From Thermoanaerobaculia bacterium (GTDB lineage: Bacteria; Acidobacteriota; Thermoanaerobaculia; Multivoradales; JAHZIX01): DNA of 44,033 nucleotides. The position numbers were made by a program, and so were the translations under genes. The stretch is from assembly GCA_027069135.1 (NCBI GenBank), contig JALXFE010000440.1:1-44033 (forward strand). Direction: 5' to 3'. Below are positions 7,701 through 38,000 of this stretch, in pieces. A model generated the notes under the pieces. It worked only from the letters and a program-made list of their open reading frames with translations, had not been told where the DNA came from and did no database searches. Within the stretch, counting starts at the first letter, position 1. Every line of letters starts with the position of its first letter.

Positions 7701-8185
7701 TTAGGTAGCAGACCCCGGGGGCCGCTCCCCGCCGCCGGCATGGGCTCTTTGGGGTCGAGCACCACCTGTGCCCCCACCAGGGCCTTGATCCCCGCTTCCC
7801 GGGCCGCCTTGTAAAAGCGGGGTGCCCCATAGACCCCGTTGACGTCGATCAACGCCGCCGCCGGCAGCCCCAGCTCCGCCGCCCGAGCGACCAGATCCTC
7901 CGGTAGGGAGGAGCCGTTCAAGAAAGTGAAGGCGGAAGCGATACGTAGCTCGGCGTACTTTGGCCCCGGACCCTTGGCCTCCCGCCGCCGCGGCGTGTAC
8001 TCCCGCTGCCGAACCTTTTCCTTGCGCGCCCCCGGTGAGGTTTTGAGCCACTCCATCGGGTAGCCGAAGCTCCGCGCCGGGGATCCCGGCAGGGGGGCTT
8101 CATCGGCGCCCCTGCTCGAACCTGCGTCCGGGGTTCCGCCGGCATTTCCACCAACGCTCTCGCCGGTCCTTCTATTTTGGGTCAT
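4739..8185 (-). CDS. dnaE2: Error-prone DNA polymerase III alpha subunit (DnaE2-like)
   Basis: A 1148-residue C-family polymerase most like DnaE2, the alpha subunit used for mutagenic translesion synthesis with ImuA/ImuB. Residues 1-75 are a poorly conserved, Gly/Pro/Arg-rich extension. A PHP-like domain begins at about 78. The palm signature PDIDLD carries the catalytic D489 and D491, preceded by GRGSAANSAVCYALS. A C-terminal OB-fold segment (VKIAGSVIVRQR... AIVHRHLM) ends the protein. The PHP metal site is lost: the usual LHCHS and FLDG are LRIAS and FLNG, and DHDGLYG is DVNGVYG. No imuA or imuB is next to it. The ATG at 8185 has GGAGAG 6 nt upstream and a sigma70-like promoter behind it, so I keep this start. 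An internal ATG at residue 44 is an alternative. Confidence 0.9.
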   Translation of the reverse strand: MTQNRRTGESVGGNAGGTPDAGSSRGADEAPLPGSPARSFGYPMEWLKTSPGARKEKVRQREYTPRRREAKGPGPKYAELRIASAFTFLNGSSLPEDLVARAAELGLPAAALIDVNGVYGAPRFYKAAREAGIKALVGAQVVLDPKEPMPAAGSGPRGLLPKTLPSREASRHPLRFHDARPRLTLMVGSRAGYRNLCRLLTAAARRGPKGEARADWEMIAAHSGGLHCLTGGAESPLLWQLQERGPAAARRLLERLRALFPKRLHVELQRHGCRRQEHRNRALADLARRLRLPLLATNGVTYARPRDKPLHDILTALRHHTHLDAAGRILAAHRQRHLKSAGEMAALFPDLPAAVGHSHDLAQELDFTLADLGYRFPDYPLPPGETLSSYLRHVAWNGARARFRPLTARAQAQIEKELALIEKLELAGYFLIVWDIVRFCQQQGIMAQGRGSAANSAVCYALSITAVDPVKMGLLFERFLSEERGEWPDIDLDLPSGEPREKVIQYVYQRFGPHGAAMTANVITYRDRSAAREVGKALGYSPDQVDKLSKQLGRWGYDLSRGDDKNLEEELRSAGFDPGEERIQLFTQLWQRIQNLPRHLGQHSGGMVIAAGRLDEVVPLEPASMKGRTIVQWDKDDCADLGIIKVDLLGLGMLNALEEAVPLVRSREKVNLDLAHLPPDDPATFKTLQKADTVGVFQVESRAQMASLPRNNPKRFYDLVIQVAIIRPGPIVGGMVHPYFERRQGREPVTYPHPCLEPILERTLGIPLFQEQLLRIAMEASGFTGGEAEELRRAMGFKRSQERMVAIEKRLRCGMAKKGITGPVQDQIVQSITSFALYGFPESHAASFALIAYASAFLKTHHPTAFLIGLLNAWPMGFYHPATLIKDAQRHGVEVRPIDVQCSGWRCRWEDRERETLRPKGAIRLGLRFVRGLRKESGEVIEGEQPFRNPEDLARRCRLRSKELDALAQVGALSAFDLSRRQAQWQVARLGRPAGRLFEDEPDRSSSPLPEMSVSDEMVADFDGTGVTTGNHPLAYLRSQLRRQGVLPAAVVERVPHGQRVKIAGSVIVRQRPGTAKGILFITVEDETGMAQAIVHRHLMQENHRVVAGSPGLVIEGILQQRDGSVSVKAEKLWPLAEVVKVPSHDFR

Positions 8186-20341: not shown

Positions 20342-23300
20342 ATGGACCGACCACCTGCCAAGAACCTCGAGAATCTATCCGACCGTCAACGCCGACTGCT
20401 GGAGCTATTGCTCAAGGAGAAGGGCTCCGCCGATGGCGGCAAGGAATCCAGGACGGCCATCACCGCCCGTTCCGGGTCCGGCCCGGCACCCCTTTCCTTC
20501 GCCCAGCAGAGGCTGTGGTTCATCGACCAGCTGCAACCGGGCACGGCGGCTTACAACATCCCTTCCGGCGTGCGTTTGAAGGGACCTCTCAACGCCGGGC
20601 TCTTCGGTCAGGCGTTGAAGCGCACGGTGGCCCGCCACGAGACCCTGCGGTCTACGTTCGAGCTTCGGGAAGGCCAGCCCGTGCAACCGGTCGCCGCACG
20701 GGCCACGGCGGTGTTGCCTCTGCTGGACCTTCGGGCTCTGCCGAGGGGAGACCGGGATACCGAGGCGCAGAAGGTCGTGGACGGCCTGGCCCGTCGCCCT
20801 ATGTCCCTGGCGAGCTCTCCACCGTGGCGGGCTCTCCTGGTGCGGGTCGAGGAGTCCGACCACGTCTTCATGACGGTGATGCATCACATCATTTCGGACA
20901 CCTGGACCACCGGGGTGTTCTTCCGGGAGATGGTGGGGCATTACAAGGCCTTGTTGGAGGGGGGGGAGGCGAAAGTTCCGGACCTGCCGGTGCAATATGG
21001 GGATTATTCCACCTGGCAGCGGAAGGCCCTGGAAGGTGGCTCCCTGAGCGGGCAGCTGGACTATTGGATCCGGCAATTCCAAGACGCGCCGCCCCTCTTG
21101 AGCCTGCCGACGGATCGGCCCCGGCCGGCGGTACAGACCTTTCGTGGGGGGCGCATCAATCTGGTACTCCCCAACACCTTGACGGATCGCCTCAAGGAGC
21201 TCAGCGCCCAACAGGAAGCGACCTTCTTCATGACCCTCATGGCGGGCTACCAGATCTTGCTCTATCGCTATACCCACGAGCCGGACCTCCTGGTGGGGAC
21301 CCCCATGGCCAATCGGGACCGGGTGGAGCTCGAGAACCTCATCGGTCTTTTCGTCAACACCCTGGTGCTGCGCACCGGGTTCCACGGCCGGCCGACCTTC
21401 CGTCAACTGTTGGATCAGGTGCGGGCGACGACCCTGGAAGGCCTCTCCAACCACGACGTACCCTTCGAACGCGTCGTGGAGGAGCTGACCCTGGAGCGGG
21501 ATACGAGCCGAAATCCCCTCTTTCAGGTTCTTTTCGCCTTCCAGAACGTCCCCATCCCCGAGTTGGTGGCCGAAGGCCTCACCTTGGAGCGCTACGAGTT
21601 CCGGGAGACCACCGCCCGCCTCGAGGTGGAGCTCGATCTGCAGGAAATGCCCTATGGCTTCGTGGGCTGGTTGGGCTACAACGCGGATCTCTTCGACGAG
21701 GCCACCGTCGAGCGTATGGCCCGGAACTTTCGGGTGCTCCTCGAGGGGATCGCCGAGAACCCGGATCGTGCGGTAGGTCAGCTGCCGCTGCTGAGCGAGA
21801 ACGAACGCCGGGAGGTGACCGCGGAATGGAATCAGACCACGGCGCCTTACGATAAGGAAGCGACCCTCCACGGTCTCTTTGAGGCGCAGGCTCGGCAAAG
21901 GCCGGAAGCCCTGGCCGTGGTTTGTGGTGCCCGGAACCTGACCTACGGTGAGCTCGAGGCCCGGGCCAACCGGCTGGCAAATCTGCTCCTCAAAGCGGGG
22001 GTCGGGCCCACCACGCCGGTGGGGATCTATCTGCGCCGGGGCCTGGATAGCGTAGTCAGCGTCCTGGCGGTGCTCAAGGCTGGAGGCAATTACATCCCGT
22101 TGGACCTGGCCTTCCCGGTGGCTCGCATGAAGACCATCGTGGAATCCGCCGGAGCCCGGCATCTCCTGACTCAAAGCAGCCTCTATGAGGACCTGGAGGA
22201 TCTGCGACCCTGCCTGGAGCATGTCGTGCTCCTGGATGCATCCTGGGAAGGAGAGTCTGCCGAAGGCCTGCGGATCTGGTCCCCGGAGGAGCTCGAGGCC
22301 CAGAGTCCCACCGCTCCCCCGATTCTCGTTCCTGCCGAGGCCTGGGCTTACACGATCTTCACCTCCGGCTCCACCGGAGTTCCCAAAGGGGTCATGGTCC
22401 AACACCGGCCGGTGAGCAATCTCATCGAGTGGGTGGCCCAGACTTTCGACTTCGGTCCCCGGGACCAGGTGCTCTTCATCACCTCTCTGAGCTTCGATCT
22501 TTCGATCTTCGACGTCTTCGGCCTGCTGGCCGTCGGCGGCTCGATCCGCGTGGCGACGGACGAGGAGAAACGCGACCCCGCAGCCCTGCTCTCGATCCTC
22601 GAGGCGGAGCCCATCACTTTCTGGGACTCGGCGCCCGCAGCGCTCCAGCAGCTGGCGCCCCTCTTCGAGGCGGGAGCGGTGGCCGACGCCGCTCTACGGC
22701 TGGCCTTCCTGAGTGGAGATTGGATTCCCGTGGGCCTGCCCGGCGAAGTGGTCAAGGCCTTCCCGGGATCCCGGGTGATCAGCCTCGGGGGAGCGACGGA
22801 AGCCACCGTCTGGTCCAACTTCTTTCCCGTTCGAGAGCTGCCGGAACATTGGGTCAGCATCCCTTACGGCCGCCCGATCCGGAACGCTCGCTACTACGTC
22901 CTGGGGGACGGCCTCGATCCGGAGCCGGTCAACGCTTCCGGGGATCTGTTCATCGCCGGGGAGTGTCTCTCCTTCGGCTACCTGGCCTCACCGGCCCTCA
23001 CCGCCTGGAAATTCGTGCCGGATCCCTTCTCCCAATCCGGAGGGCGCCTCTACCGCACGGGAGACCGGGCCCGGTTCTGGAAGGACGGAAACCTCGAGTT
23101 CCTCGGGCGACTGGACCATCAGGTCAAGATTCGTGGCTACCGCATCGAGCTGGGAGAGATCGCCGCCGCATTGACCGAGCATGAGGACCTGAGGGATGCG
23201 GTTGTGCTGGTGCGGGAGGACACCCCCGGGGATCGTCGGCTGGTGGCCTACGTCGTAGCCTCCGAGGGGGAGGCGCCGGGGTTCGCGGAGTTGCGGGCGT

Positions 23301-26300
23301 TTCTCCTGCGTCGCCTACCGGAATATATGGTCCCCACCCTCTTCTTGCCCATCGAGGGGATCCCCACCACGGCCAACGGCAAATTGGACCGGCAGGCCTT
23401 GCCGGCGCCGGAGCTGGAGCGTCCGGATCTGGGAGAGGCCTACGTCGACCCGGAAGGGGAGATGGAGGAGACCATCGCCGGGATCTGGAGGCGGGTGTTG
23501 CAGGTCGACCGGGTCGGCCGGCAAGATAATTTCTTTACCCTCGGCGGTCACTCCCTTCTCCTGACACAGATCCATGGCGAGTTGAAGGAGAAGCTCTCCG
23601 CGGACCTGTCGTTGGTAGATCTCTTCACCTACCCGACGGTGGGGTCGCTGGCGGAGTTTCTCACCACCAGCCACGATGCCCAGGAGGAAGTCGCGGCCAG
23701 TCTCACTCGGGCGGCGGCTCGCAAGGGGGCCTCGGCCTCCTCCCAGGAGGAAGGTGTAGCGATCATCGGCATGGCTCTGCGCTACCCCCGATCCCGGGAC
23801 GTGGACGAGTTCTGGCACAACCTGCGCAACGGCATCGAGTGCATCGACTTCTTTAGCGAGGAGGAGGTTCTGGCTGCCGGAGTGGACCCGGAGCTGGTCC
23901 AACATCCGGATTACGTGCGGGCGGAAGGCACGGTCTCCGACGTAGACAAATTCGATTGGCGCTTCTTCGGCTACGGCACGCCGGAGGAAGTGGAGCTCGT
24001 CGATCCTCAGCAACGGATTTTCATGGAGATCGCCTGGGAATGCTTCGAGAGGGCCGGCTACAACCCCTTCACGGCCCAGGAGAGCATCGGGGTCTTCGGT
24101 GGGGTGAATATCTCCAGCTACATGTTCAACACCCTCTACGACTACGATCCTTTCAAGGTCATGTCGAGCTTCCTGACCCGCATCGGTCTCCTGGTGGGAA
24201 ATCAGAATGACTACCTCTGCACCCGCCTGGCCTACCACTTCAACCTGCGGGGACCGGCCCTGACGGTGCAGACGGCGTGCTCGACGGCCACCGTGGCCAC
24301 ACACCTGGCGACTCAGAGCCTGCTGCGCAACGAATGCGATCTCTGCCTCGCCGGCGGGGTGCAGATTCGGGTGCCCCAGAACATGGGCTACCTCTACCAG
24401 GAGGGGGGCTTTCCCTCCCCGGACGGCCATTGCCGCTCTTTCGACGCCAAGGCCAAGGGCAATGTCCATGGCAACGGCGCCGGGATCTTGCTTCTCAAGC
24501 GTCTCTCCGAAGCCGTGCGGGACGGGGACCGGATCCACGCCGTGATTCGCGGCACGGCGGTGGCCAACGATGGCAGTGTCAAGGTGGGTTTCACCGCCCC
24601 GGGGGTGAGCGGTCAGGCGAGAGTGGCGGCGGAAGCCATGGCCGTGGCGGGCCTGAGCCCGGAGGATATCGGCTATCTCGAGGCCACCGGCACCGGCACC
24701 GAGTTGGGGGATCCCATCGAGGTGGAGGCCCTCACCAAGGCCTACCGTCTCAGCACCGACAAGGTGGGGTTCTGCCCCATCGGTTCCGTCAAGAGCAATA
24801 TCGGCCACACCGACGCCGCCAGCGGTGCCGCGGCGTTGATCAAGACCGCCCTGGCTCTCGAGAACGAGGAGATTCCTCCCAGTCTGCACTTCGAGGAACC
24901 GAACCCCCGCATCGATTTCGCCTCCAGCCCCTTCGAGGTCAACACCGAGCTCAAGGCCTGGCCTCGCGATGGCAAGACCCGCAGAGCGGCGGTCCATACC
25001 TACGCCGTGGGAGGCACCAACACCCACATCATCTTGGAGGAGGCGCCCCGGGTGCGGGCCTCGAGCCCCAGCCGTCCGTGGCAGCTCCTTCCCCTCTCGG
25101 CCCTCACCTCGACGGCCTTGCATCAGGCGACGGAGAACCTGGCGCAGTACCTGGAAGGCAGCGGCGAGGACCTGGCCGATGTCGCCTTCACCCTGCAGGT
25201 GGGGCGGCGGGATTTATCTCTACGCCGAGCCGTTCTGTGCACCGACCGGGGCGAAGCCGCGACCCTTCTTCGTTCCCTCGAACCCGAGCGGGTCGTGACC
25301 GGGACGGGAGTCCGGGAAGCGCCCACGGTGACGCTCTTTCTCTCCGAGGACGAAGGCCTGAAGGTCTCCGCTTTCGCCGAGATCTACCGTGCCGAGCCCC
25401 TCTTCCGTGACGCCGTGGACGAGATCTCCTCGGATCTGGAGGGCTTCCTCGGCGGATCTCTCAGCGAGAGCCTGCTGGCGAGTGAGGAGGCCTTGGCCGA
25501 GGAGCTCCGGGCACCGATCCACTTCGCGGTGCTCTACGCCCTGGGACGACTCTGGCGCAGCTGGGGGGTTGAGCCCCGGCGCATCGGTGGCAGCGGCGTC
25601 GGTGAGCTGGCGGCGGCCTGCCTCGCTGGCGTTCTGGCACCCTCGGCGGCGGCGCGGTTGGCGGCGGAGGAGGGGAAGATCTTGGCCGCTTCCCCTTTGA
25701 GTCCGTGCCTCGAGGTCCACGGTGATCTGTCGGCGTTGGAGGAGCTTCTTCCGGAAACCCTGCGCATCAGCTCCATCTCGGGGGAGGAGACCTGCACCCT
25801 CATGGGGCCGGAGCCGGAGGTCGAAGCTTTCCGAGACGTTCTCGAAGGGGAGGGATTCGCCGCCTTCATCTTGGGCAAGAAGCGATGTCCGCCCCTCCCC
25901 GGGACTCCGGAGCTGGGGACTTACCGTCTCATCCTCGAGGGATTGGTGAGCGCACCGGCGGAGATCGGTTGGTTGTCCTCGGTGCGGGGTGGGGCCATGA
26001 CCCCGGAGCAAGCTCAGGATCCGTCGTATTGGGAGACCAGGCTCTCGGCGACGGTTCGCACGGCGAAGGTCCTGCGCTCGGTGCTCTCGGACCCCCGTCA
26101 GATCCTTCTGGAGGTCGTTTCGAGCGGCCTCGGGGTCTCGGATCTGTCCGGTTCCGGCGGCGATCTCAGCCGGAGGGTCGCAAGCCTAGGGGATGGCTCG
26201 CGACCGCCCCAAGGCGCCTTGCTCCGAGCCCTGGGGGAGCTCTGGACCGCCGGGGTTGCGGTGGATTGGGCAGGCTTTTCGAGTCGCGAGGAGCGGTGTC

Positions 26301-28273
26301 GGATTCCCTTGCCTACCTATCCCTTCGAGAGGGAGCGGATCTGGGCGGAGCCGGAGATGGACCGCCAAGAGGCCTTCGGGCGACTGGGAGCGCGGGGGGA
26401 GCGAAAGCCCCTGGAGGATTGGTTCTACGCCCCCACCTGGAGCCGCCGGGAGAGCCTTTCGAAGACCCCCGCGGCGCCGGAAGGCGGTGCCGAGACCTGG
26501 TGGGTCTTCGCCGATGCCGGCTCGCCGCCGGCGGCGGCAGCCCACCTGTTGCAGGCCGGGGGTCGCTCCGTCGTGGTGATCGAGGCTGGCGAGGCCTACC
26601 AGGCCCCGGAGAACGGAAGATGCCGTCTGCGGCGGGGTCGGTTCGAGGACTATCAGCGGTTGTTGGAGACCCTGGGCACGGAGTCCCTGGGTTCGGGGAC
26701 CCTGGCAGGGGTCGTCTTCGGCTGGGCGCTACCCGCGGATTCCGGGGCATCGGAGAGTCTCGATACCCGAGGACTCTGGGATCTGGTGTTGTTGGCCCGG
26801 GCTCTCGGATCCCGGCCCCAGGGGCTCACCCTCGACATCGTCACCGCCGGTGGCCAGGAAGTCCTGGGGGATGAAGAGCTCGTCCCCGACCAGGGGGCGA
26901 TTTCGGGTCTCGCCAAGGTCATTCCTCAGGAGTATCCGCAGTTGCGCTGCCGCACCGTCGATCTATCTGTGGAGCTTCTGCGCCGCGGCGACGGCCCTCC
27001 GAAGCAGCGCGCCTTGGAAGCTCTGGTCCGGGAGTGGCTCGAGGAGCCTTCCAGCACCGCGGTGGCCGTGCGCGGGGCGCGCCGGTGGCAACAAGGCTTC
27101 GAGGCTTTGCCGGTGGCTGCCGCCGGAGCTCCGGCTCTACGCCGGGACGCGGTGGTGCTGCTCGCCGGTGGGGTCCACCCCTTCACCTTGATGGTGGGCG
27201 AGGCCCTGGCTTCCCAAGGGCCGGTGCGCCTGGCCTTCCTTGGCGAGTCCGGCCTGCCCCCTCGGGAGGATTGGCCGGCCTGGATCGAATCCGCTGCTGA
27301 GGACGAGACCTGCCGGAATCTGAGGAGCCTCCTGGCCCTCGAAGAGCAGGGAGCTTCGGTGCTGGTGCTGCCGGCGGAGCTTCACCGCCCGGACCAGGCC
27401 GCCGCGGCGGTGGATCAGGTCCTGGAGCTGTGGGGTGCGATTCACGGGGTCCTCTTCACCTCCGGCGAGCTGGCGCCGGAGTACGTGCGGGGGCTGGCGG
27501 AGCTCGACGGGGAGTTTCTGGCCTACCGCATGGGCCAGCGGTTGCGATCGCTCGAAGCCCTGGAGTCGGCCCTGGGGGATCGCCCTCTGGACTTCTTCTG
27601 GCTCTCGTCTACCGTTGCCGCGGTACTGGGCGGTCTGGCCGTCGGCGTCGAAGCGGCAGCGGATTCCTTCCTCGACACTCTGGCCCGCCAGCGTTGTCAG
27701 GAAGGCCGATCCTATTTGAGCATCGGCTGGGATGCCTTCCGGTTCGGCCATGAAGACGCCGAGACCTCAGCTCGATTGCCCCGGGCAGCCCTGACCCCGT
27801 CCGAAAGTGGGGAGGTCGTTCATCGGCTGCTGGCCGCCGGCCTGACCTCCCACGTGGTGATTTCCACCACCGACCTTCCCGCTCGGGTCCGGGGGGCTCT
27901 CGGAAGGGTCTCGGAGGAAGGGACGAGCAGTCTCCGGCAACGACCAGCCGACTTGGCCCAGGAGTATCTGGCGCCGCGCAACGAGGTGGAAGAAGAGGTA
28001 GCCCAGATCTGGTCCGAAGTGCTGGGGATAGATCCCATCGGCGTGGAAGACAACTACTTCGATCTAGGGGGAAACTCCCTTCTCGCCACCCAATTGGTGT
28101 CCCGCCTACGGGGTCGTTTCCAGGTGGAGCTGGCCCTCCAGGGCTTTTTCGAAGGAGCCACGGTCAGCAACGTCGCCCGCAGCATCGACATGGCCCGATG
28201 GGCCGGTGAACAACAGGCCGAGGCTCAGGAGCCTGTCCTGGTTGCCAGTGGTGAAGAAGTCGGCGAGATCTGA
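20342..28273 (+). CDS. Hybrid NRPS-PKS: C-A-PCP followed by a catalytically dead KS-AT-KR-ACP
   Basis: 2643 residues, starting 6 nt after the PKS. Residues 1-35 form a charged N-terminal docking helix. C domain 45-486: HHIISD intact (H181, H182, D186), but HHxxxDG has T for G. A domain 513-1030: TSGSTG at 674; specificity positions read D-L-F-D-F-S-L-V-W-K, nearest to cysteine-type codes such as DLYNLSLIWK. PCP: S1071. The PKS part looks inactive. KS 1138-1570 keeps C1313 and H1489, but EAHGTGT is EATGTGT (T1449 replaces His). AT 1660-2000 reads GGSGVGE with Gly at the catalytic Ser position (1752) and has no HAFH. KR 2023-2520 lacks the glycine-rich motif and the catalytic Tyr/Asn. ACP keeps S2579. 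The tail ends in EEVGEI, like a ligand for TubC_N docking domains. It probably adds one amino acid to the polyketide chain and passes it on. Confidence 0.92.
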   Translation: MDRPPAKNLENLSDRQRRLLELLLKEKGSADGGKESRTAITARSGSGPAPLSFAQQRLWFIDQLQPGTAAYNIPSGVRLKGPLNAGLFGQALKRTVARHETLRSTFELREGQPVQPVAARATAVLPLLDLRALPRGDRDTEAQKVVDGLARRPMSLASSPPWRALLVRVEESDHVFMTVMHHIISDTWTTGVFFREMVGHYKALLEGGEAKVPDLPVQYGDYSTWQRKALEGGSLSGQLDYWIRQFQDAPPLLSLPTDRPRPAVQTFRGGRINLVLPNTLTDRLKELSAQQEATFFMTLMAGYQILLYRYTHEPDLLVGTPMANRDRVELENLIGLFVNTLVLRTGFHGRPTFRQLLDQVRATTLEGLSNHDVPFERVVEELTLERDTSRNPLFQVLFAFQNVPIPELVAEGLTLERYEFRETTARLEVELDLQEMPYGFVGWLGYNADLFDEATVERMARNFRVLLEGIAENPDRAVGQLPLLSENERREVTAEWNQTTAPYDKEATLHGLFEAQARQRPEALAVVCGARNLTYGELEARANRLANLLLKAGVGPTTPVGIYLRRGLDSVVSVLAVLKAGGNYIPLDLAFPVARMKTIVESAGARHLLTQSSLYEDLEDLRPCLEHVVLLDASWEGESAEGLRIWSPEELEAQSPTAPPILVPAEAWAYTIFTSGSTGVPKGVMVQHRPVSNLIEWVAQTFDFGPRDQVLFITSLSFDLSIFDVFGLLAVGGSIRVATDEEKRDPAALLSILEAEPITFWDSAPAALQQLAPLFEAGAVADAALRLAFLSGDWIPVGLPGEVVKAFPGSRVISLGGATEATVWSNFFPVRELPEHWVSIPYGRPIRNARYYVLGDGLDPEPVNASGDLFIAGECLSFGYLASPALTAWKFVPDPFSQSGGRLYRTGDRARFWKDGNLEFLGRLDHQVKIRGYRIELGEIAAALTEHEDLRDAVVLVREDTPGDRRLVAYVVASEGEAPGFAELRAFLLRRLPEYMVPTLFLPIEGIPTTANGKLDRQALPAPELERPDLGEAYVDPEGEMEETIAGIWRRVLQVDRVGRQDNFFTLGGHSLLLTQIHGELKEKLSADLSLVDLFTYPTVGSLAEFLTTSHDAQEEVAASLTRAAARKGASASSQEEGVAIIGMALRYPRSRDVDEFWHNLRNGIECIDFFSEEEVLAAGVDPELVQHPDYVRAEGTVSDVDKFDWRFFGYGTPEEVELVDPQQRIFMEIAWECFERAGYNPFTAQESIGVFGGVNISSYMFNTLYDYDPFKVMSSFLTRIGLLVGNQNDYLCTRLAYHFNLRGPALTVQTACSTATVATHLATQSLLRNECDLCLAGGVQIRVPQNMGYLYQEGGFPSPDGHCRSFDAKAKGNVHGNGAGILLLKRLSEAVRDGDRIHAVIRGTAVANDGSVKVGFTAPGVSGQARVAAEAMAVAGLSPEDIGYLEATGTGTELGDPIEVEALTKAYRLSTDKVGFCPIGSVKSNIGHTDAASGAAALIKTALALENEEIPPSLHFEEPNPRIDFASSPFEVNTELKAWPRDGKTRRAAVHTYAVGGTNTHIILEEAPRVRASSPSRPWQLLPLSALTSTALHQATENLAQYLEGSGEDLADVAFTLQVGRRDLSLRRAVLCTDRGEAATLLRSLEPERVVTGTGVREAPTVTLFLSEDEGLKVSAFAEIYRAEPLFRDAVDEISSDLEGFLGGSLSESLLASEEALAEELRAPIHFAVLYALGRLWRSWGVEPRRIGGSGVGELAAACLAGVLAPSAAARLAAEEGKILAASPLSPCLEVHGDLSALEELLPETLRISSISGEETCTLMGPEPEVEAFRDVLEGEGFAAFILGKKRCPPLPGTPELGTYRLILEGLVSAPAEIGWLSSVRGGAMTPEQAQDPSYWETRLSATVRTAKVLRSVLSDPRQILLEVVSSGLGVSDLSGSGGDLSRRVASLGDGSRPPQGALLRALGELWTAGVAVDWAGFSSREERCRIPLPTYPFERERIWAEPEMDRQEAFGRLGARGERKPLEDWFYAPTWSRRESLSKTPAAPEGGAETWWVFADAGSPPAAAAHLLQAGGRSVVVIEAGEAYQAPENGRCRLRRGRFEDYQRLLETLGTESLGSGTLAGVVFGWALPADSGASESLDTRGLWDLVLLARALGSRPQGLTLDIVTAGGQEVLGDEELVPDQGAISGLAKVIPQEYPQLRCRTVDLSVELLRRGDGPPKQRALEALVREWLEEPSSTAVAVRGARRWQQGFEALPVAAAGAPALRRDAVVLLAGGVHPFTLMVGEALASQGPVRLAFLGESGLPPREDWPAWIESAAEDETCRNLRSLLALEEQGASVLVLPAELHRPDQAAAAVDQVLELWGAIHGVLFTSGELAPEYVRGLAELDGEFLAYRMGQRLRSLEALESALGDRPLDFFWLSSTVAAVLGGLAVGVEAAADSFLDTLARQRCQEGRSYLSIGWDAFRFGHEDAETSARLPRAALTPSESGEVVHRLLAAGLTSHVVISTTDLPARVRGALGRVSEEGTSSLRQRPADLAQEYLAPRNEVEEEVAQIWSEVLGIDPIGVEDNYFDLGGNSLLATQLVSRLRGRFQVELALQGFFEGATVSNVARSIDMARWAGEQQAEAQEPVLVASGEEVGEI

Positions 28274-28286
28274 GGGCTCGAGAGAT

Positions 28287-30410
28287 ATGGCGAGCAGAAC
28301 GTTACAAGTCGCCGAGTTGGTGAGCTTTGTGCGAGACCGGGCGGTGGAGCTCCAGGTGAAGGGGGAGTGCCTGACCTTTCGAGGAGCCATGGGAGACCTG
28401 CCGCCCCAGGTGCGCCGGGATCTGGTCGAGCGGAAAGGCGAGATCCTGCGTTTCCTCGCTGCGCCTCCGGACGGCGGAGCCTCGAATCCTCTGGCTCCGC
28501 TTCTGCAACCCTTGAGGATCGGATCTCTCGAAATCTCGAACCGACTGGTGCTCTCTCCCATGGAAGTGGACCTCGGCGAGGTGGACGGCAGGGTCTCTCC
28601 CCGGGTGGTGGATTATTACGCCGCCCGAGCCCGGGGCGGCGTCGGTCTGGTCATCGTCGAGGCGACCTGCGTCGACGCGCCGGTGGGACGCCTCGCCCCG
28701 ACGCAGCTGGTAGCCGATCATGATGGAGCGATTCCGGGTCTTCAGCGGCTGGCACGGGCTATTCAGCGGGGAGGGGCCCGGGCGGCGCTACAACTACAAC
28801 ATGCCGGGCGCAAGACCAGCGCTGCGCTCACCGGTGTGCGACCGGTAGCACCGTCGCCGGTACCCAATCATCTGGGAGAGACGCCCCGGGAGCTCGAGCC
28901 GGAGGAGATTCATGCTCTGGCCCGGCGGTTTGGAGATGCTGCCGCCCGTGCCCAGATGGCGGGCTTCGATGCGGTGGAGATTCACGCCGGTCACGGCTAC
29001 CTTCAGGCGCAATTCCTTTCCCCTACCTACAACCAGCGTTCCGACGAGTACGGCGGAAGCGCGAAAAACCGTGGACGGTTCCTGTTGGAAACCGTCCGGG
29101 AAGTGCGGCGCCGGGTGGGGCGAGGCTTTCCCGTCCTCTGTCGCCTGAGCGCCTTGGAGCTGGAGGTCGAAGGGGGATTGCGGCCCCTCGCCGGAGGGTT
29201 GTCTTTCGAGGAAACCCGACGCCTCGCTCCTCTTCTCGAAGCTGCCGGTGTGGCCGCCATCGACCTCTCCGCGACCCTGGTGGGACCGGCCTTGCTCCAT
29301 CCCATGGCCTGGCCGGAGGCTGCCTTGGCGGAATACGGTCGAGGGCTCAAGGAGACGGTGTCGATCCCCGTCAGCCTCACGTCTCGGATCCCCGTGGCCT
29401 GGGCGGCGGAGCAGATCGCTGCCGGCGCCTTGGACATGGTGCGCCTGGGCCGGCCCCTGTTGGCGGATCCGGAGCTACCCCGGAAGCTGAGATCGCCGGC
29501 GGTTGGAGAGATCCGGCCCTGCATCTACTGCTCCGAATGTCTGGACGGACCTCGCCGGGAGCCGGCTGCAGTATGCGCTGTCAACCCGCGTCTGGGCCGG
29601 GAAGGGGAGGCGGAGACCGACGCCATCGAGGCTCGCACGGTGGTGGTTGCCGGGGGCGGGCCGGCGGGGATGGAAGCCGCTTGCGCCGCCGCTCGCCGGG
29701 GGCATCGGGTCCACCTCTTCGAGCGGGGAGAGGAGCTTGGAGGACAGCTCCTTCTCTCTTCCAAGCCGGACTCCGCCGCCATCACCTACGGTGCCTTCCT
29801 GCGCTTTCTTCAGGCCGAGGTCGAACGCTCGGAGGTACGAGTTCACCTGGGAGAAGAGCTCGGACCGGAGGCTTTGGAGGCCTTGGGGGCTCAGGTCTTG
29901 GTCCTCGCCACGGGAGCCAAAGCCATCTCGACCCTCCCTGCCGGAGCCGATGGAGCGATCACCGCCATCGATGTCCTCAAAGGGGCACCGACGGGGGAGC
30001 GGGTGGCGGTCGTCGGCGGCGGATTGGTCGGTTGCGAGACGGCCCTGAAGCTGGCGGCCCGGGGCCACCAGGTGACCTTGATGCACCGCGGCGCGGGCCT
30101 CGCCGAGAGGGTTCCGGCGGAGGTGCGCACATGGCTTCTATGGGCCTTGGAACAAGAGGGCCTGGAGCTTCGCCGCCGATGCGAGGCCCGGCAGGAAAGC
30201 GCCGGTGAGCTCATCTTGCTCCAGGACGGACGAGAGGTCGCGGAGCGATTCGACACGGTGGTCCTGGCCGTGGGGGCTGAGCCGGATCTCGGGCCCTGGC
30301 AGGAGTTTTCCGGTGAGGGCCTGGAGATTGTGGTGTTGGGGGATTGCCGAAAGCCCCGGGACCTGCGCCACGCGGTTCATGACGGGTATTGGTCGGCACA
30401 GGATTTCTGA
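28287..30410 (+). CDS. TubC_N docking domain fused to Old-Yellow-Enzyme / dienoyl-CoA reductase-like flavoenzyme
   Basis: 707 residues, 13 nt after the hybrid gene. Residues 5-56 are a TubC_N-type NRPS docking domain (VAELVSFVRD... LQVKGECLTFRGAMGDLPPQVRRDLVERKGEILRFL). Residues ~68-400 are an FMN-binding TIM barrel of the Old Yellow Enzyme family, with QHAGRKTS, EIHAGHGYLQAQFLSP and DEYGGSAKNR motifs. C412, C415, C418 and C430 can hold a [4Fe-4S] cluster. From ~449 to the end are the two Rossmann segments (VAGGGPAGMEA and VVGGGLVGCE) of NAD(P)H:flavin reductases such as FadH. It should pass electrons from NAD(P)H via FAD, Fe-S and FMN to reduce an activated C=C or similar bond. The docking domain implies an assembly-line-bound substrate. 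Spacing CxxCxxC is one residue shorter than in FadH. ATG 28287 is used; an earlier in-frame start would overlap the upstream gene. Confidence 0.9.
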   Translation: MASRTLQVAELVSFVRDRAVELQVKGECLTFRGAMGDLPPQVRRDLVERKGEILRFLAAPPDGGASNPLAPLLQPLRIGSLEISNRLVLSPMEVDLGEVDGRVSPRVVDYYAARARGGVGLVIVEATCVDAPVGRLAPTQLVADHDGAIPGLQRLARAIQRGGARAALQLQHAGRKTSAALTGVRPVAPSPVPNHLGETPRELEPEEIHALARRFGDAAARAQMAGFDAVEIHAGHGYLQAQFLSPTYNQRSDEYGGSAKNRGRFLLETVREVRRRVGRGFPVLCRLSALELEVEGGLRPLAGGLSFEETRRLAPLLEAAGVAAIDLSATLVGPALLHPMAWPEAALAEYGRGLKETVSIPVSLTSRIPVAWAAEQIAAGALDMVRLGRPLLADPELPRKLRSPAVGEIRPCIYCSECLDGPRREPAAVCAVNPRLGREGEAETDAIEARTVVVAGGGPAGMEAACAAARRGHRVHLFERGEELGGQLLLSSKPDSAAITYGAFLRFLQAEVERSEVRVHLGEELGPEALEALGAQVLVLATGAKAISTLPAGADGAITAIDVLKGAPTGERVAVVGGGLVGCETALKLAARGHQVTLMHRGAGLAERVPAEVRTWLLWALEQEGLELRRRCEARQESAGELILLQDGREVAERFDTVVLAVGAEPDLGPWQEFSGEGLEIVVLGDCRKPRDLRHAVHDGYWSAQDF

Positions 30411-30476
30411 TGGTTGGTTTCTTCTCCCTGGGCCTCGACGGGCAGGGAGGCGGCTTCAGAGGAGGAGCCGGCAGAG

Positions 30477-33400
30477 ATGAACGTTTCCGTGATGCAGCAG
30501 CGGGCCGACGCCCGCGGTCTCTCGATCCCGGCTTTGGAGCGGCTCCTGGAACAGTGGGGTCTGGGGGGAGCTCGGTGGACCCTGGTGGGGGATGGGGTCA
30601 ACAAGACGCTGGAGGTGAAGCCCTCTTCCCCGGCCTTCGGTGGCGAGGATCGACTGGCGTTGCGCCTCTATTCGGGAGCCCAATACGACCCTCTGACGAT
30701 CCGATCCGAGCTCTCGTGGCTCGAATCCCTCAAGGGGGCGGGTCTGCGGGTGCCGGTGGGGCTCCCCGGACGGGATGGGACCTCCATCGTGGCGGCTCGG
30801 GAGGTCGTGGGCGAGGTCGGCAGCTCGGCGGTGCTCTTCAGCTGGTTGGAGGGGAGCCCCGTTCCGGAGCCCCTGTCTCCAGCTACCGCCCGAAGGCTGG
30901 GAGAGTTCATGGCGAGGCTCCACCGCCATTCGCAGACCTTTGCGGCGGGGCTCGACTTCAAACGACCCCGCTACGGCTTAGAACGCCTCCTAGGAGACGG
31001 AAAATCCGCCGGTGGGAAGGGTGCCGTGCCCTTCTGGACCGACGAGGTCAGGGCTTTGGCCCGAAGGGCCGGGGAGGTTCTTCGGCAGGAGTTGGGAAGA
31101 TTACGACAGGAGCCCGGCGAGGCCGCCTCCGGTGGTTGGGGTTTGATTCATGGAGACCTGCAGATCACCAACTTTCTCCTCCAGGAGGGAGAGCTCGGGG
31201 CCATAGATTTTGCCGATTTCGGTTGGGGCTTTTTCCTCTACGACGTGGCGGCATCCCTGCTGCCGGTGCGGCATAGCTCGGAGTTTCCAGCCCTGCGGGA
31301 CGCCTTCCTTCGAGGCTACACCGGGGTCCGGCCGCTGATGCCCTCCGCCAAGGATCTCTTGGAGCCGTTCTTCGCTGCCCGGGCCCTCTTCATTCTGCGC
31401 TGGACCGGGGAGTTCTGGCACCTGCCTTCGGTGCGCGAGACGGCGAAGACGACCTTGCCCTTTCTCAAAGGGGAGCTCCGGCGATTCCTCGGCGAAGACG
31501 CTCCCGGAGCCCCGGGAGGGGATGGGGTCGTCGAGCTCTTGAGCCGGCTCCGAGCTTCGGGGATCAAGCTTTGGGAAGAGGAAGGCCGGCTGCGCTTCAA
31601 AGCTCCTGAAGGGACGATGACTTCGCAGCTCCGGCAACGGCTGGCCGAGAAGAAGGGACAGCTTCTCCTCTTCCTCGTGCGGCACCGACAGGCCGGCCAG
31701 AAGACCCAGGAACCGGCGTTGGAGCCCCTCCCCCGGCGGAAGCATATGCCGCTGTCTTTCGCCCAGGAACGCCTGTGGATCCTTCATCGACTGGAGCCGG
31801 AGAGCCCGGCCTACAACATTTCCCAGGGGATTCGCCTCGAGGGGAGGTTGGTCCCCTCCGCGCTGCGCAAGACTCTGCAGGAGATCGTGCGACGCCACGA
31901 GATCCTGCGGACCTCCTTCGGCCTTTCGGATGCGGACGAACCGGCCCAGATCATCGCTCCTGCCTTGGAGCTCGAGATCCCCACCGTCGACTTTCGGGGC
32001 CTCGCCGCGGGGGCCGGTGCGGGGAAGGTAGAGGCCCTGACCTCCCGGCTGGCCAACCAACTGGCTTCAATGCCCTTCGACCTCAGCCGGATCCCTCTGC
32101 TGCGTTTCGTTCTCCTTCGCACCGGCGAAGCCCGGCACCTCCTGTTGCTCAGTCTGCACCACATCATTTCCGATGGCTGGTCCAGCGGCATCCTGATGCG
32201 GGAGATGGCGACCCTCTATGGAGATTTCCTGAACGGCGCAGAGCCGTCCTTGGGGGAGTTGGGGCTGCAATACGCGGATTTCAGCGGCTGGCAGCGGCGC
32301 TGGCTTCAAGGGGAGGTGCTAGAGGGGCAGCTGGAGTATTGGCGTCAACATCTGGCGGGGGCCCCGGGTCTCCTGGAGCTTCCCGCGGACCGCCCCCGGC
32401 CGCCGGTCCAGAGTTTTCGTGGTGGCCGCCGGGAGGTGGCGTTGGATGGGCAGCTTTCATCCCGCCTCAAGAGCCTGGGGCAGCAGAGCGGGGCGACTCT
32501 CTTCATGAGCCTGGTAGCGATCTATGGAGCCCTCCTCTTTCGCTACTCCGGCCAGCGGGATCTGCTCCTGGGCTATCCCATCGCCAACCGCAACCGGGTG
32601 GAGATCGAGCCCCTCATGGGGTTCTTCGTCAACACTCTGGTGCTGCGGGCTCGGTTCTCCCCGGGGCAGACCTACAGAGAGCTCCAGGAGCAGATGCGGC
32701 GGATCACCGTCGATGCCTACAACCATCAGGACCTGCCCTTCGAACGGCTGGTGGAAGAGCTCCACCCGGAGCGGGACGTGAGCCACACGCCCCTGTTCCA
32801 GGTCATGTTCACCCTCCAGAACGCCCCCCTGCCGAAGCTCGCGATGCCGGGGCTGGAGCTCGGGTTCGTCCGGCCGGAAAAGGCCGCCGTGCAGCTGGAC
32901 CTGGACATGACCCTGCGGGATGGGGAGGACGGTCTCCGGGGTGTGTTGGCCTACAGCCTGGATCTCTTCGACCCGACCACCGCCGAACGCTTGACAGAGC
33001 ATTTCGCGGCCCTGGCAGCAGCGGCGATGGCGCAGCCGGACCTTGCCCTGGAGCGCCTCTCCCTGCTGCCCCCGGCCCAGCAGCATCAATTGCTCCTGGA
33101 GTGGAACGACACCGCAACGAGCTACCCTCTCCAGCGTTCCTTCCCGGAGCTCTTCGGGCGGTCCGTCGAAGAATTCTCGGAGCGGATAGCGGTGCGCTGC
33201 GGGGACGAGGTCTGGACCTACGGCGAGCTCGGGGCCCGATGCGCCGGGCTGGCTGCTCGGTTCCGGGAGAAAGGCCTGATCCCCGGCGGGGTGGTCGCCG
33301 TGTTGGCCCACCGAGGGCCGGATCTCCTGGCCGCCATAGTGGCCGTCCTCCAGGCCGGGGGTGCCTACCTGCCCCTCGATCCCCTCCACCCATCGCGGCG

Positions 33401-34985
33401 TCTGGCAGCCACTCTGGAACGCAGCGGGGCAGATCTGTTGGTGGTGGAGCCGGGAACCGAGGGCCTTTGGGCGCCGATCCTGGAAGCGCTGGACGATGAC
33501 GCGGGGCCGACCCTCGTCGAGTTGAACCCCGTGGCCCAGGGGGCGTCGGCGCCGCCGGTGCCGATTCACCCGGAGGGTCTGGCCTATGTCATCTTCACCT
33601 CCGGCTCTACCGGCGTTCCCAAAGGAGCTATGGTCCATCAGGGCGGCCTGGTCAACCACCTCCTGTTGATGATCGACAGGCTGGACCTGGGCCCGGAGGA
33701 CGCACTCGCCCAGACCGCCTGCCAATGCTTCGATATTTCCGTCTGGCAATTCTTGACGCCGCTTCTGGTCGGCGGGCGGGTGGAGATTCTGCCGGACGCC
33801 GTGGCCCACGACCCCCTCTCCCTGGTCCGGGCGGTGGAGGAGCGGCGGATCACCCTGCTCCAGACCGTGCCGTCCATGCTGGGCCAGATGCTTCAGCTCC
33901 TCGAGGATGAGGGCGGGGCGGCGCTGCGGGGCCTTCGCTGGATGATTCCTACCGGGGAGGCCCTACCGGTCTCCCTCTGGCAGCGTTGGCACGAAGCCTT
34001 TCCGAAAATTCCCTTGCTCAACGCCTACGGCCCCGCCGAATGCTCCGACGACGTCACCCTGGAGCGCCTCCACGGGGCGCCGGTTTCGACGGCGGTTCCC
34101 ATCGGCCGGCCGGTGGCGAACCTCCAAACCCTCGTGGTCAACGAAGACTTCTCTTTCGCTCCCCCGGGAGTCCCCGGCGAAATCGCCATCGGTGGCGTCG
34201 GGGTGGGTTGGGGATATTTGGGAGATCCCGGCCGCACGGCGGAGGTCTTCGTTCCCAACCCTCATTCGGCAGCGCCGGGGGAACGCCTCTATCTCACCCG
34301 GGACCTGGGCCGTTGGAGCGGCGAGGGGGTGCTGGAGTTTACCGGCCGGCGGGATTATCAGGTCAAGATCCGGGGTTTCCGCATCGAGCTCGGCGAGGTG
34401 GAGGCGGCCCTCGAGACCCACGAGCTCATCGGGCAGGCAGTGGCCGTCGCGGAGGCCTCCGAGGAGGGAGCGGAGCAGTTCCTGGCGGCTTATCTGGAGT
34501 GCTCCCGGGGGGGCGTTCCGGACGTCGAATCCCTCCGCGCCCACGTCAAGACTTGCCTGCCTCGGTATATGGTGCCGTCCCTCTTCATCCTGCTGGACGA
34601 GTTGCCCCGCAACGCCAACGGCAAGGTGGACCGTCAGGCCCTCGGCAAGGCCGGAGGCACCGTTCTCGAGTTGGCCACCGCCTACGAACCTCCGGCCACG
34701 CCGTCGGAGACCGAGATGGAGGAGATCTGGAAAGAGCTCCTGGATCGGGATCGGGTCGGAGTCCACGACAGCTTCTTCGATCTGGGGGGGAACTCCCTCA
34801 TGGCCACCCAGCTCCTGGCCCGGGTACGGCAACGATTTGCCGTGGAGCTGCCGCTGGCGGTGCTCTTCGAGACGCCGACGGTGCGGGCTCTGGCGAGGGC
34901 CATCGACGTCGTCTCCGGGGCCGAGGCGGCCCGCCTCCGGCGTGGGTCCGATGGGACCGAAGACCGGGAAGAAGGGGAGCTCTGA
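30477..34985 (+). CDS. Kinase-NRPS fusion: APH-like phosphotransferase-TubC_N-C-A-PCP
   Basis: 1502 residues. Residues ~15-335 resemble the aminoglycoside phosphotransferase / homoserine kinase II fold: catalytic loop HGDLQITN (H225, D227, N232) and Mg-binding D244 in IDFADFGWG. TubC_N lies internally at 349-402. C domain ~424-865 has HHIISDG (H561, H562). A domain ~890-1390 has TSGSTG at 1041, and specificity positions read approximately D-I-W-Q-I-T-A-D-D-K, which I cannot assign. PCP has S1440. The tail ends in EEGEL, a likely ligand for the next protein's TubC_N domain. It adds one amino acid; the kinase may phosphorylate a hydroxyl of the bound chain, of the product, or of a precursor. 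The start ATG has GGAGGAG about 9 nt upstream; the frame is open a little further (TTG 30414), but that part is not protein-like. Confidence 0.9.
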   Translation: MNVSVMQQRADARGLSIPALERLLEQWGLGGARWTLVGDGVNKTLEVKPSSPAFGGEDRLALRLYSGAQYDPLTIRSELSWLESLKGAGLRVPVGLPGRDGTSIVAAREVVGEVGSSAVLFSWLEGSPVPEPLSPATARRLGEFMARLHRHSQTFAAGLDFKRPRYGLERLLGDGKSAGGKGAVPFWTDEVRALARRAGEVLRQELGRLRQEPGEAASGGWGLIHGDLQITNFLLQEGELGAIDFADFGWGFFLYDVAASLLPVRHSSEFPALRDAFLRGYTGVRPLMPSAKDLLEPFFAARALFILRWTGEFWHLPSVRETAKTTLPFLKGELRRFLGEDAPGAPGGDGVVELLSRLRASGIKLWEEEGRLRFKAPEGTMTSQLRQRLAEKKGQLLLFLVRHRQAGQKTQEPALEPLPRRKHMPLSFAQERLWILHRLEPESPAYNISQGIRLEGRLVPSALRKTLQEIVRRHEILRTSFGLSDADEPAQIIAPALELEIPTVDFRGLAAGAGAGKVEALTSRLANQLASMPFDLSRIPLLRFVLLRTGEARHLLLLSLHHIISDGWSSGILMREMATLYGDFLNGAEPSLGELGLQYADFSGWQRRWLQGEVLEGQLEYWRQHLAGAPGLLELPADRPRPPVQSFRGGRREVALDGQLSSRLKSLGQQSGATLFMSLVAIYGALLFRYSGQRDLLLGYPIANRNRVEIEPLMGFFVNTLVLRARFSPGQTYRELQEQMRRITVDAYNHQDLPFERLVEELHPERDVSHTPLFQVMFTLQNAPLPKLAMPGLELGFVRPEKAAVQLDLDMTLRDGEDGLRGVLAYSLDLFDPTTAERLTEHFAALAAAAMAQPDLALERLSLLPPAQQHQLLLEWNDTATSYPLQRSFPELFGRSVEEFSERIAVRCGDEVWTYGELGARCAGLAARFREKGLIPGGVVAVLAHRGPDLLAAIVAVLQAGGAYLPLDPLHPSRRLAATLERSGADLLVVEPGTEGLWAPILEALDDDAGPTLVELNPVAQGASAPPVPIHPEGLAYVIFTSGSTGVPKGAMVHQGGLVNHLLLMIDRLDLGPEDALAQTACQCFDISVWQFLTPLLVGGRVEILPDAVAHDPLSLVRAVEERRITLLQTVPSMLGQMLQLLEDEGGAALRGLRWMIPTGEALPVSLWQRWHEAFPKIPLLNAYGPAECSDDVTLERLHGAPVSTAVPIGRPVANLQTLVVNEDFSFAPPGVPGEIAIGGVGVGWGYLGDPGRTAEVFVPNPHSAAPGERLYLTRDLGRWSGEGVLEFTGRRDYQVKIRGFRIELGEVEAALETHELIGQAVAVAEASEEGAEQFLAAYLECSRGGVPDVESLRAHVKTCLPRYMVPSLFILLDELPRNANGKVDRQALGKAGGTVLELATAYEPPATPSETEMEEIWKELLDRDRVGVHDSFFDLGGNSLMATQLLARVRQRFAVELPLAVLFETPTVRALARAIDVVSGAEAARLRRGSDGTEDREEGEL

Positions 34986-35017: not shown

Positions 35018-38000
35018 TTGAGCGATAGCAATGCCACTCTCGTGCCTCCGGCCCCGCCGGAGCTGCTCGTCGAGGTGGGCGAGGAAGAGACCACGGTGGA
35101 GTTCCTTGCCCGTCTCCAGGCCCGCGATATCGATCTTTGGGCCGAGGGCGAGAAATTGCGGTTCAACGCGCCCAAGGGCGCGCTGACGCCGGCTCTGCGG
35201 GAAGAAATCCTACGCCGGAAGCCCTCCCTCCTGAGTTTCTTGCAGCAGGTAGCGGATTCCGGCAAGGCACCGCCGCCACCGATCCCCCGGCGGGATCTTT
35301 CGACTCCCCACCGTCTCTCCTTCGCTCAGGAACGGCTGTGGTTCTTCTCCCAATGGGAGTCGGAGAGTGCAGCCTACAACCTCTCTCCCGCCTTCCTGCT
35401 TCGGGGCGAGCTGCGGATTTCTGACCTGGCGAGAGCTCTGGCCGGAGTCGTCGAACGCCATGCCGTCTTGCGGACCCGCTATTCGGAGGCTGACGGGGAG
35501 CCCCGACAGCACGTGGAGAGCAACGTGGCGTTGCCCCTGCCGCTGGTCGATCTCTCCTCCCTGGCGCAGGCCGAGGTGCGAGATCTCGGGCAGAGGCTCT
35601 TGGATCGTGGATCTCAGAAGGCCTTCGACCTGCGCCAGGCTCCGCCGCTGCGGGTACTGCTGCTTCGCCGTGGGCCCCGAGAGCATGTGTTGCTCATCGT
35701 CGTTCATCACATCGCCTTCGATGGCTGGTCCAGCGCGGTGATGATGAGGGAAGTCGTCGAGGCCTACCAGGCCTTGGGCCAGGGGCGCGCGGTACACCTG
35801 TCGGCACCGCCAATTCAATACGCGGAATTCGCCCACTGGCAGCGGGAGTGGCTCGAGAGCGGTGTCTTGGAGGATCAGCTGGCCTTCTGGACGAGCCACC
35901 TCGAAGGGGCCCCCCAGGTTCTGCAGATGCCGACGGACCGTCCCCGGTCCCGGGAGGGATCGGCTGCTGGTGGCCGCGTGGAAGGATGGGTGCCGGGCTC
36001 CTTGTGGAAGGAGATCCAGGGCCGCTGCCAGCGATGGGATGTGACTCCCTTCATGTTCCTCAGCTCTGTATTCGGCTACGTCCTCTCCCTTTGGTGCGGG
36101 CAGAGGGATTTGCTCTTCGGCTCTCCCATCGGTACCCGCAATCGGGTCGAGTTGGAAGGCTTGATCGGTTTCTTCGTCAATACTCTGGTATTTCGGACAC
36201 TCATCCGCCGGGACGACACCGTCGAAGATCTCCTGCGGCGAAGCCGGCAAGGAACTCTCGAGGCCCTGGCGCACCAGGATCTACCCTTCGAACGGCTGGT
36301 GGATGAGCTCCAGCCCACCCGGGACCTTCAACTGACCCCTCTCTTTCAGGTCATGTTTGCCTTTGAGAATGTCGGTGGCGGGATGATCGCTACCGAAGGC
36401 CTGGAGGTCGAGGCCGTCCCTACCCATAGCGGCGCGGTGGCCTTCGACCTGAGCACGGTGATGCGCGAGGAGGGAGATCGGCTCTTCCTGGGACTGCGGT
36501 TCCGCAAGGCCCTCTTCGATACCACCACCATGGAGCGCCTGCACCGGCGCTTGCGGGGTTTTCTCCAGGAGTTTCTGGGGAATCCGAAACGGCGGCTCTC
36601 CCAGTTGCCGACGATGAGTACCACTGAACGCCACCAGCTTTTGTGGGAGTGGAGCGATACGGCGCGTCTCTATCCACCGAGGACCGTCCCCGGACAGATC
36701 CTCAAGGCAGCGGCGGAGATTCCGGAAGCACCGGCGGTGACCCTCGACGGAGGAGAGACCTTACGCTACGGCGAGTTGATGGCCTGGGCCAGCACCCTCA
36801 GTCTGGAGCTCCTCCGAGGGGGCGTTCGCCCGGGCAGCCCCGTGGCGGTATGCCTGGATCGCTCCCTGGAACAAGTCGTGGCGCTCTTGGCGGTGCATCT
36901 GGCGGGCGCTGCCTACCTCCCCCTGGATCCCTCCTACCCGGCCTTGCGGTTGCGGTATCTCCTCGAGGACGCTCTGGGTGGCGAACCCGGAGCCGTTCTG
37001 CTGGCGGGGCCCGAGGGGGCACCGGCGGAGCTCGAAGCCTGCTGCCACGACCTGGCGATCACCGTGCTCTCCGTGGCATCGGAGGGACGAGACGGGGATG
37101 CCGTGGGCTTCGTCGCGGACGAACCGGATCCTCAAAGCCCGGCCTACCTGCTCTACACCTCCGGCTCCACGGGTCGTCCCAAGGGGGTGGTGATCTCTCA
37201 CGGGGCCCTCGCCAATCACATGAGCTGGATGGGGGAGATCCTGGGGATCGGAGCCTCCGACGTGGTGCTGCAGAAGACCCCCATGAGCTTCGACGCTTCG
37301 GTCTGGGAGTATTGGGCGCCGCTCCTGGCCGGCGGGCGCCTGGTGGTCGCAGAGCCGGACGGTCATCGGGATCCCCGGTACCTGCTGGAGGTCATCCGCC
37401 GCCATGGGGTGACCGTGCTCCAGGCGGTGCCCTCCCTGTGGCAGGCCCTGGTAGAAGAAGACGGGTGGAGTGAGGGTGATTCTCTGCGCCTCATCTGCAG
37501 TGGTGGCGAGCCCTTGTCGCCCCGTCTGGCGGAAGATCTGCAGGCTCGTAGCGGCGTACGGGTGGTGAACCTCTACGGCCCCACAGAGGCGACCATCGAT
37601 GCCACCTGGTGGGAGGTCCCTGGGGAAGGCCCCGGCACTGTCGTACCGGTGGGGAGGCCGGTCGCCAACCTTCTCGCTCGGATTCTGGATGGGGCCGGGC
37701 GACCGGTGGCCCTGGGATCGGCGGGGGAGCTCTCCCTTTCCGGAATGGGCTTGGCCCAGGGCTACCACCGGCGTCCGGGGTTGACGGCCTCGGTCTTCGT
37801 ACCGGATCCCCATGGCCAACGCCCCGGGGAGCGGCGCTACCGTACCGGGGACCGGGCCCGTTGGCGACGGGATGGTCTATTGGAAGTGTTGGGGCGTTTC
37901 GACCAGCAGGTCAAGGTGCGGGGATTCCGCATTGAAGTCGGCGAGGTGGAATCGGCCTTGGGAGCTGTCGCCGGAATCAAGGAGAGGGCCGTGGTCGTCC

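Follow-up and report, generated by a model that had tools for sequence, protein, structure and literature searches.

By profile search and structure prediction, the N-terminus of a 707-residue flavoenzyme encoded in a hybrid synthetase cluster is confirmed as a genuine NRPS docking domain of the TubC_N type, carried by a stand-alone FMN/Fe-S/FAD enzyme. The reading we favor, at a probability of roughly 0.55, is that the protein is an enzyme of the ene-reductase type that has acquired its docking domain and would act in trans on a chain parked at the last ACP of the adjacent hybrid synthetase, in a PKS module that appears dead for elongation. Its gene occupies nt 28287-30410 of the window, the whole stretch of 44,033 nucleotides that was analyzed and that is one whole contig of a 7.2 Mb genome (G000); the ATG start lies 13 nt downstream of the stop codon of the hybrid synthetase gene. 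Coordinates are on the forward strand unless marked (-). G002 and G003, two species that belong to the same family but to another genus, encode orthologues with the same N-terminus, and these provide most of the comparisons made below.

The docking domain of the flavoenzyme

The TubC_N (beta-hairpin docking domain) profile PF18563 matches residues 8-57 (nt 28308-28457) at 34.1 bits (E 2.9e-8) when the whole protein is searched, at 39.3 bits (E 7.1e-10) with the excised N-terminus and at 38.9 bits when the whole genome is scanned; the curated cut-off is 26 bits, and searches with this profile at E <= 0.01 or stricter returned no matches in 14 control genomes. The earlier note on this DNA, made from the sequence alone, had assigned the first 56 or so residues to TubC_N, and that assignment is borne out with the whole protein and with the excised domain alike. 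The domains of the orthologues also score above the cut-off (51.0 bits in G003, 44.8 bits in G002).

AlphaFold models the 68-residue N-terminus (mean pLDDT 76.7, from an alignment of only three sequences) with a helix at residues 8-17, strands at 21-25 and 28-32, and helices at 40-48 and 50-58, and the same elements recur in the full-length model. This is the published alpha-beta-beta-alpha-alpha docking fold; the earlier note was right in expecting a docking fold, but the alpha-alpha-beta-beta-alpha-alpha order that it gave is wrong for the model and for the published fold. The best ten PDB rows from Foldseek were all NRPS docking domains (EpoB, enacyloxin Bamb_5915, TubC, Kj12A/B/C and AerJ), and after VIA realignment docking-domain entries filled ranks 1-8 with Z of 5.7-7.8, unrelated chains reaching 2.5 at most, although TubC's own dimeric structure (2jug) realigned at only Z 2.3. 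The AerJ halogenase provided a top fold match and also the best PDB sequence match, with an E-value of 0.19 for the domain alone and 6.8e-18 with a 15-domain profile. Since Foldseek E-values are weak for so small a domain (0.017 at best), the main weight falls on the PF18563 match. Among the three TubC_N domains of the window, that of the flavoenzyme is the weakest scoring and most divergent, and it lacks the usual Trp of strand 1. It is followed by an Old Yellow Enzyme (OYE) barrel, and not by the C, Cy or other assembly-line domain that would mark a synthetase subunit.

TubC_N also occurs on small proteins of mobile islands, and the fold alone is thus no proof of NRPS docking. Such proteins, in frames of about 150-210 aa with TubC_N above the Pfam cut-off, were seen at L009 (~9325-9477, (-)), L011 (~5682-5825, (-)), L042, L073 and L077; L009 and L011, both from the window's genome, are islands with primase-like and integrase genes and not NRPS genes. 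Two different C-terminal halves recur among these proteins, which had no match in a phage collection and matched plasmids in their TubC_N part only.

A PKS module that appears retained without elongation

The hybrid synthetase (nt 20342-28273, 2643 aa) was resolved by domain search as C-A-PCP-KS-AT-KR-ACP, and each catalytic domain of its PKS module carries disabling replacements. The KS (nt 23750-24895) keeps its Cys (TACST) and second His, with the first His, that of HGTGT, replaced by Thr (EATGTGT at nt 24680-24700; EATGTAT in G002). The AT (nt 25379-26095) has lost its HAFH motif and the serine of GxSxG, reading GSGVGE at nt 25589-25606 and GWGSGE in place of GxSxGE in G002, and the KR (nt 27149-27739) has lost the NADPH motif and catalytic Tyr in G000 and likewise in G002. 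In G003 the hybrid is represented by a fragment that starts inside the KR, where the catalytic-Tyr region is lost too and the ACP is intact. The last ACP of the window's hybrid (nt 27995-28180; PF00550), the proposed platform for the flavoenzyme, retains an intact LGGNSL, and it is intact in G002 as well, the Ser being kept in both. A KS devoid of the HGTGT His together with an intact carrier protein, as found in G000 and G002, is what distinguishes a non-elongating KS0 module. Judged by these motifs the module is dead for elongation, in a manner conserved across two genera, and conserved loss of elongation alongside a conserved Cys and ACP fits a module that only transfers. The earlier note had overlooked this state, which changes the range of possible carrier-bound substrates.

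The modules of the first synthase are KS-AT-KR-ACP and KS-AT-KR0-ACP. At the other side the cluster is incomplete in the window, the contig breaking off within the last NRPS. Upstream of the synthase genes, and probably near the cluster edge, lies a gene for an error-prone DNA polymerase of the DnaE2 type (window 4739-8185, (-)). A homologous line in a genome from another family (G044) has the same two-module PKS and the same APH-TubC_N-NRPS; there C-A-PCP-C-A-PCP replaces the hybrid, and the line lacks both the dead PKS module and the flavoenzyme. This comparison, in which a single family is weighed against a single cluster located near a contig end, fits an arrival of the dead module and the flavoenzyme together; it is a single comparison and not a correlation.

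Tails and docking partners

The hybrid synthetase ends in the short linear motif GEEVGEI (nt 28250-28270), identical in G002 and GEEMGEI in G003. In rhabdopeptide synthetases, for which the x-x-G-E-I form of tail was measured by ITC/NMR, only the last five tail residues (L-R-G-E-I) form the bound strand, and these contact strand 2 of the docking domain at positions 24, 27 and 28 (PMC6195595). The suggestion of the earlier note that the tail EEVGEI could be the ligand of the flavoenzyme agrees with this published pattern and with the conservation of the motif in both relatives. The only other docking-peptide-like synthetase tail in the cluster, EEGEL (nt 34968-34982; EEGDL in G002 and G003), belongs to the product of the gene that follows the flavoenzyme, an APH-like kinase-TubC_N-C-A-PCP subunit (APH-NRPS; nt 30414-34985) with orthologues in G002, G003 and G044. 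The tail of the first synthase is helical-looking and free of a docking-peptide motif.

Two further TubC_N domains, both overlooked by the earlier note, bear on the choice between these tails. The second lies inside the APH-NRPS (nt 31527-31676; 61.6-67.6 bits), scores higher than that of the flavoenzyme and is the proposed competitor for the same tail; the third forms the N-terminus of the following NRPS (nt 35096-35248; 69-76 bits). With a TubC_N on the next synthetase, two domains probably share the one hybrid tail, and there is precedent for a single tail that may recruit more than one subunit (PMC9113145). At docking position 28, numbered by an alignment that recovered Lys28 of Kj12B correctly, the three flavoenzymes have R/R/K, the three APH-NRPS proteins K/K/K and the next NRPS N/S/S. 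Since both have K/R28, the flavoenzyme falls, on few sequences, in the same class as the domain that would receive the hybrid's chain.

One plausible alternative is that the flavoenzyme docks in the same way to the APH-NRPS tail, or indiscriminately to both tails, and acts on a PCP-bound peptide one module later. The published charge rule (PMC6195595), taken literally, favors this assignment, in that K/R28 would form a salt bridge with the Glu at the fourth-last residue of the acidic EEGEL/EEGDL, and the APH-NRPS tail is itself kept in G002 and G003. However, the flavoenzyme gene lies directly behind that of the hybrid, the APH-NRPS domain that would have to accept the hybrid's chain has the same K/R28, and the domain expected to receive EEGEL has N/S28. 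The G044 line shows this last pairing class, its APH-NRPS having S28 and the tail there being EEGEF, yet it has no OYE. Docking to the APH-NRPS tail is therefore considered unlikely, although it is the strongest of the competing explanations, and because of the charge rule the assignment to the hybrid tail (EEVGEI, EEVGEI and EEMGEI in the three species) is held as likely only.

Catalytic domains and the probable reaction

The attached redox enzyme has the FMN, Fe-S and FAD modules that were originally read from the sequence. An FMN-binding OYE barrel (residues 72-402, nt 28500-29492; PF00724, 207 bits) contains His233-x-x-His236-x-Tyr238 (nt 28983-29003), both His and the Tyr being kept in G002 and G003; it is followed by a probable 4Fe-4S site, C412-x2-C415-x2-C418-x11-C430 (nt 29520-29576), recognized in motif alignments, and by an FAD/NAD(P)H-binding part with two GxGxxG-type (Rossmann) motifs (nt 29637-30365; PF07992). 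With barrel, four-Cys cluster, and FAD and NAD(P)H domains all present, the protein belongs to the 2,4-dienoyl-CoA reductase/OYE-FeS-FAD superfamily. Its nearest solved relatives, at 230-237 bits, are the 2,4-dienoyl-CoA reductase FadH (1ps9), which is the best, and NCR (6qkg); these and the BaiCD-type Fe-S flavoenzymes share the order FMN barrel, Fe-S, FAD/NAD(P)H, to which the flavoenzyme adds a docking domain. It is not FadH proper, as the alignments reveal CxxCxxC where 1ps9 and 6qkg have CxxCxxxC, and in place of the FadH active-site residues it has HxxHxY as in class-III OYEs, 1ps9 carrying other residues there. The exact reaction is not readable from the family, because the scores of 372, 363 and 352 bits fall short of the NCBIfam equivalog cut-offs (793, 825 and 750 bits).

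The earlier note had seen no dehydratase in the PKS, and domain searches agree: neither of the two synthases has a DH domain, and the PKS DH domains of the genome are on other contigs, which removes a PKS dehydratase as a source of the double bond and leaves the C=C to be reduced unexplained. The same finding is an argument for a second alternative, in which the docking domain does tether the enzyme, and the action is oxidative (desaturation or another FAD/FMN oxidation) or falls on a carrier-bound unit delivered elsewhere, the enzyme not being an ene-reductase. Related Fe-S flavoenzymes include the trimethylamine and histamine dehydrogenases, both oxidative, and the CxxCxxC spacing is one that we take to be of the trimethylamine dehydrogenase type. 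Set against this, both the FAD and the NAD(P) motifs are complete, the His-x-x-His-x-Tyr found in NAD(P)H-dependent OYEs is kept, and the best solved relative is a 2,4-dienoyl-CoA reductase; oxidative action is judged still less probable than docking to the APH-NRPS tail. For a reductive enzyme, one guess at the substrate comes from the hybrid A domain, with a specificity code, read by hand, of D-L-F-D-F-S-L-V-W in a sequence context that is presumably associated with Cys/Ser/Thr-type domains; a domain of that type would permit a dehydroamino acid.

Conservation and origin of the fusion

The TubC_N-OYE fusions of G003 and G002 are 55% (residues 7-703) and 54% (residues 8-704) identical to the window protein. 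The gene order hybrid, OYE, APH-TubC_N-C-A-PCP, TubC_N-NRPS is the same in G000, G002 and G003, and the shared fusion and gene order rule out an assembly chimera as the source of the fusion. A match to the OYE at E <= 1e-60 was found in 81 of the 396 genomes of a phylum sample; outside the family the alignments in this sample begin at residue 48 or later, with one exception at 38, and these homologues are therefore taken to be without the docking domain. A scan of genome contigs with the whole protein recovered only OYE relatives without docking domain, mostly from Clostridia, and neither the whole protein nor its N-terminus found a convincing TubC_N-OYE fusion among plasmids; a 31% plasmid match in Desulfosarcina, under a Tn3 transposase, was taken as chance. 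In the docking-domain tree the domains of the three OYE proteins group in a single clade (support 0.855, a weak figure on only about 52 columns), which points to a single fusion event. A few of the frames in the OYE tree were antisense and had been picked in error (L015, L017, L051, L058 and L060), and the tree was used only for the fusion clade and the motif table.

In a comparison of G002 with G003 the docking domain has 68% identity and a dN/dS of about 0.47, compared with 66% and about 0.34 for the Fe-S/FAD part and 79% and about 0.24 for the barrel, values by which the TubC_N of this pair is under purifying selection comparable to that on the Fe-S/FAD part. It is improbable that the N-terminal domain is a role-less remnant, left by a gene fusion or by a C domain since lost, on an enzyme that uses a free precursor, for although the domain diverges more quickly than the barrel does (42-44% against 59-62% identity between genera) and has lost the strand 1 Trp, it stays above the Pfam cut-off in three species of two genera, its dN/dS in the G002/G003 pair is below 1, and its length is constant where that of the linker behind it varies.

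A model for docking at the hybrid synthetase

We infer the binding, the sharing of a tail, the order of events, the chemistry and the substrate from sequence features and their conservation, and in the favored reading they would combine as follows. The KS0 would most likely take over the chain carried by the upstream PCP and load it, with no carbons added, onto the hybrid's last ACP. The docking domain of the flavoenzyme would grip the tail of this ACP, G-E-E-V/M-G-E-I, as an additional beta strand, and the docked enzyme would process the chain on this ACP, probably by reduction of an activated C=C, with electrons passing from NAD(P)H to FAD, Fe-S and FMN. It would then leave, allowing the TubC_N of the APH-NRPS to bind the same tail and its C domain to take the chain. 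A more specific version, offered tentatively and with somewhat less than even confidence, is that a cis-AT PKS module disabled three times over (KS, AT and KR) survives solely as a place to park the chain, and that its one tail is time-shared by the OYE reductase, which modifies, and the next synthetase, to which the chain is handed over, with docking affinity setting the order.

Relation to known systems

That tailoring enzymes outside the synthetases can carry docking domains is known, which the earlier note had overlooked: such domains have been recognized by bioinformatics on halogenases, methyltransferases and thioester reductases (PMC9113145), and the one on the AerJ halogenase has been solved by crystallography (8aqq/8aqr). 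AerJ, from the aeruginosin pathway, is likewise a free-standing tailoring enzyme that serves an NRPS line and begins with a beta-hairpin docking domain, although its catalytic part is a halogenase and not an OYE/Fe-S/FAD reductase, and its docking domain falls on a separate branch of the docking-domain tree. TubC, EpoB, Kj12A-C and Bamb_5917/5915 (SLiM/beta-hairpin pairs, PF18563) share the fold and the x-x-G-E-I-type tail on an upstream carrier protein; the domains of TubC, EpoB, Kj12A-C and Bamb_5915 precede C or Cy domains and hand the chain on, whereas here the domain is on a tailoring enzyme and a second domain is expected on the same tail. In logic the proven analogue is mupirocin MmpE, a KS0-ACP-oxidoreductase module attached by docking, whose KS0, itself non-elongating, delivers the chain to an ACP for on-line action of the oxidoreductase (PMC7619045). 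The MmpE oxidoreductase is in cis and docking is by a four-helix bundle at the KS0, in contrast to the separate flavoenzyme with its own docking domain described here, and unlike MmpE the present KS0 module is cis-AT derived with AT and KR dead. Within the papers, PDB entries and genome and plasmid collections searched, no description was found of an OYE-type enzyme in this role, of its position beside a PKS module dead in three domains, or of the duplicate acceptor, and a literature search on OYE with NRPS gave nothing relevant among the papers listed.

Several observations from the surroundings stand apart from this argument. Within the same bacterial class another stand-alone flavoenzyme, resembling acyl-CoA dehydrogenase/HsaA-like monooxygenases, carries a TubC_N of 65.9 bits (L088:11113-12912, (-), on G022:C52), and its gene is divergent from a large NRPS gene. 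The fusion of an APH-type kinase before TubC_N-C-A-PCP is found in G002, G003 and, in another family, G044 as well as in the window; the APH domain brings to mind ComG, the self-resistance kinase of corramycin (PMC10996006), a resemblance only; ComG stands alone, and the present kinase is part of an assembly-line subunit. In the related cluster of G002, the gene at C31, 27408-30188 of the reverse-complemented stretch, downstream of the NRPS, reads from its sequence as penicillin-acylase-like and could fit prodrug removal. No link of the cluster to a named product was established.

Should the proposed arrangement hold, small portable docking pairs would, beyond ordering subunits, also call a large redox enzyme to one carrier protein, and a degenerate PKS module could be a functional platform. 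It would provide a testable natural design for equipping engineered assembly lines with an ene-reductase at the step of choice, and trans-acting tailoring enzymes would be findable by their docking tags.
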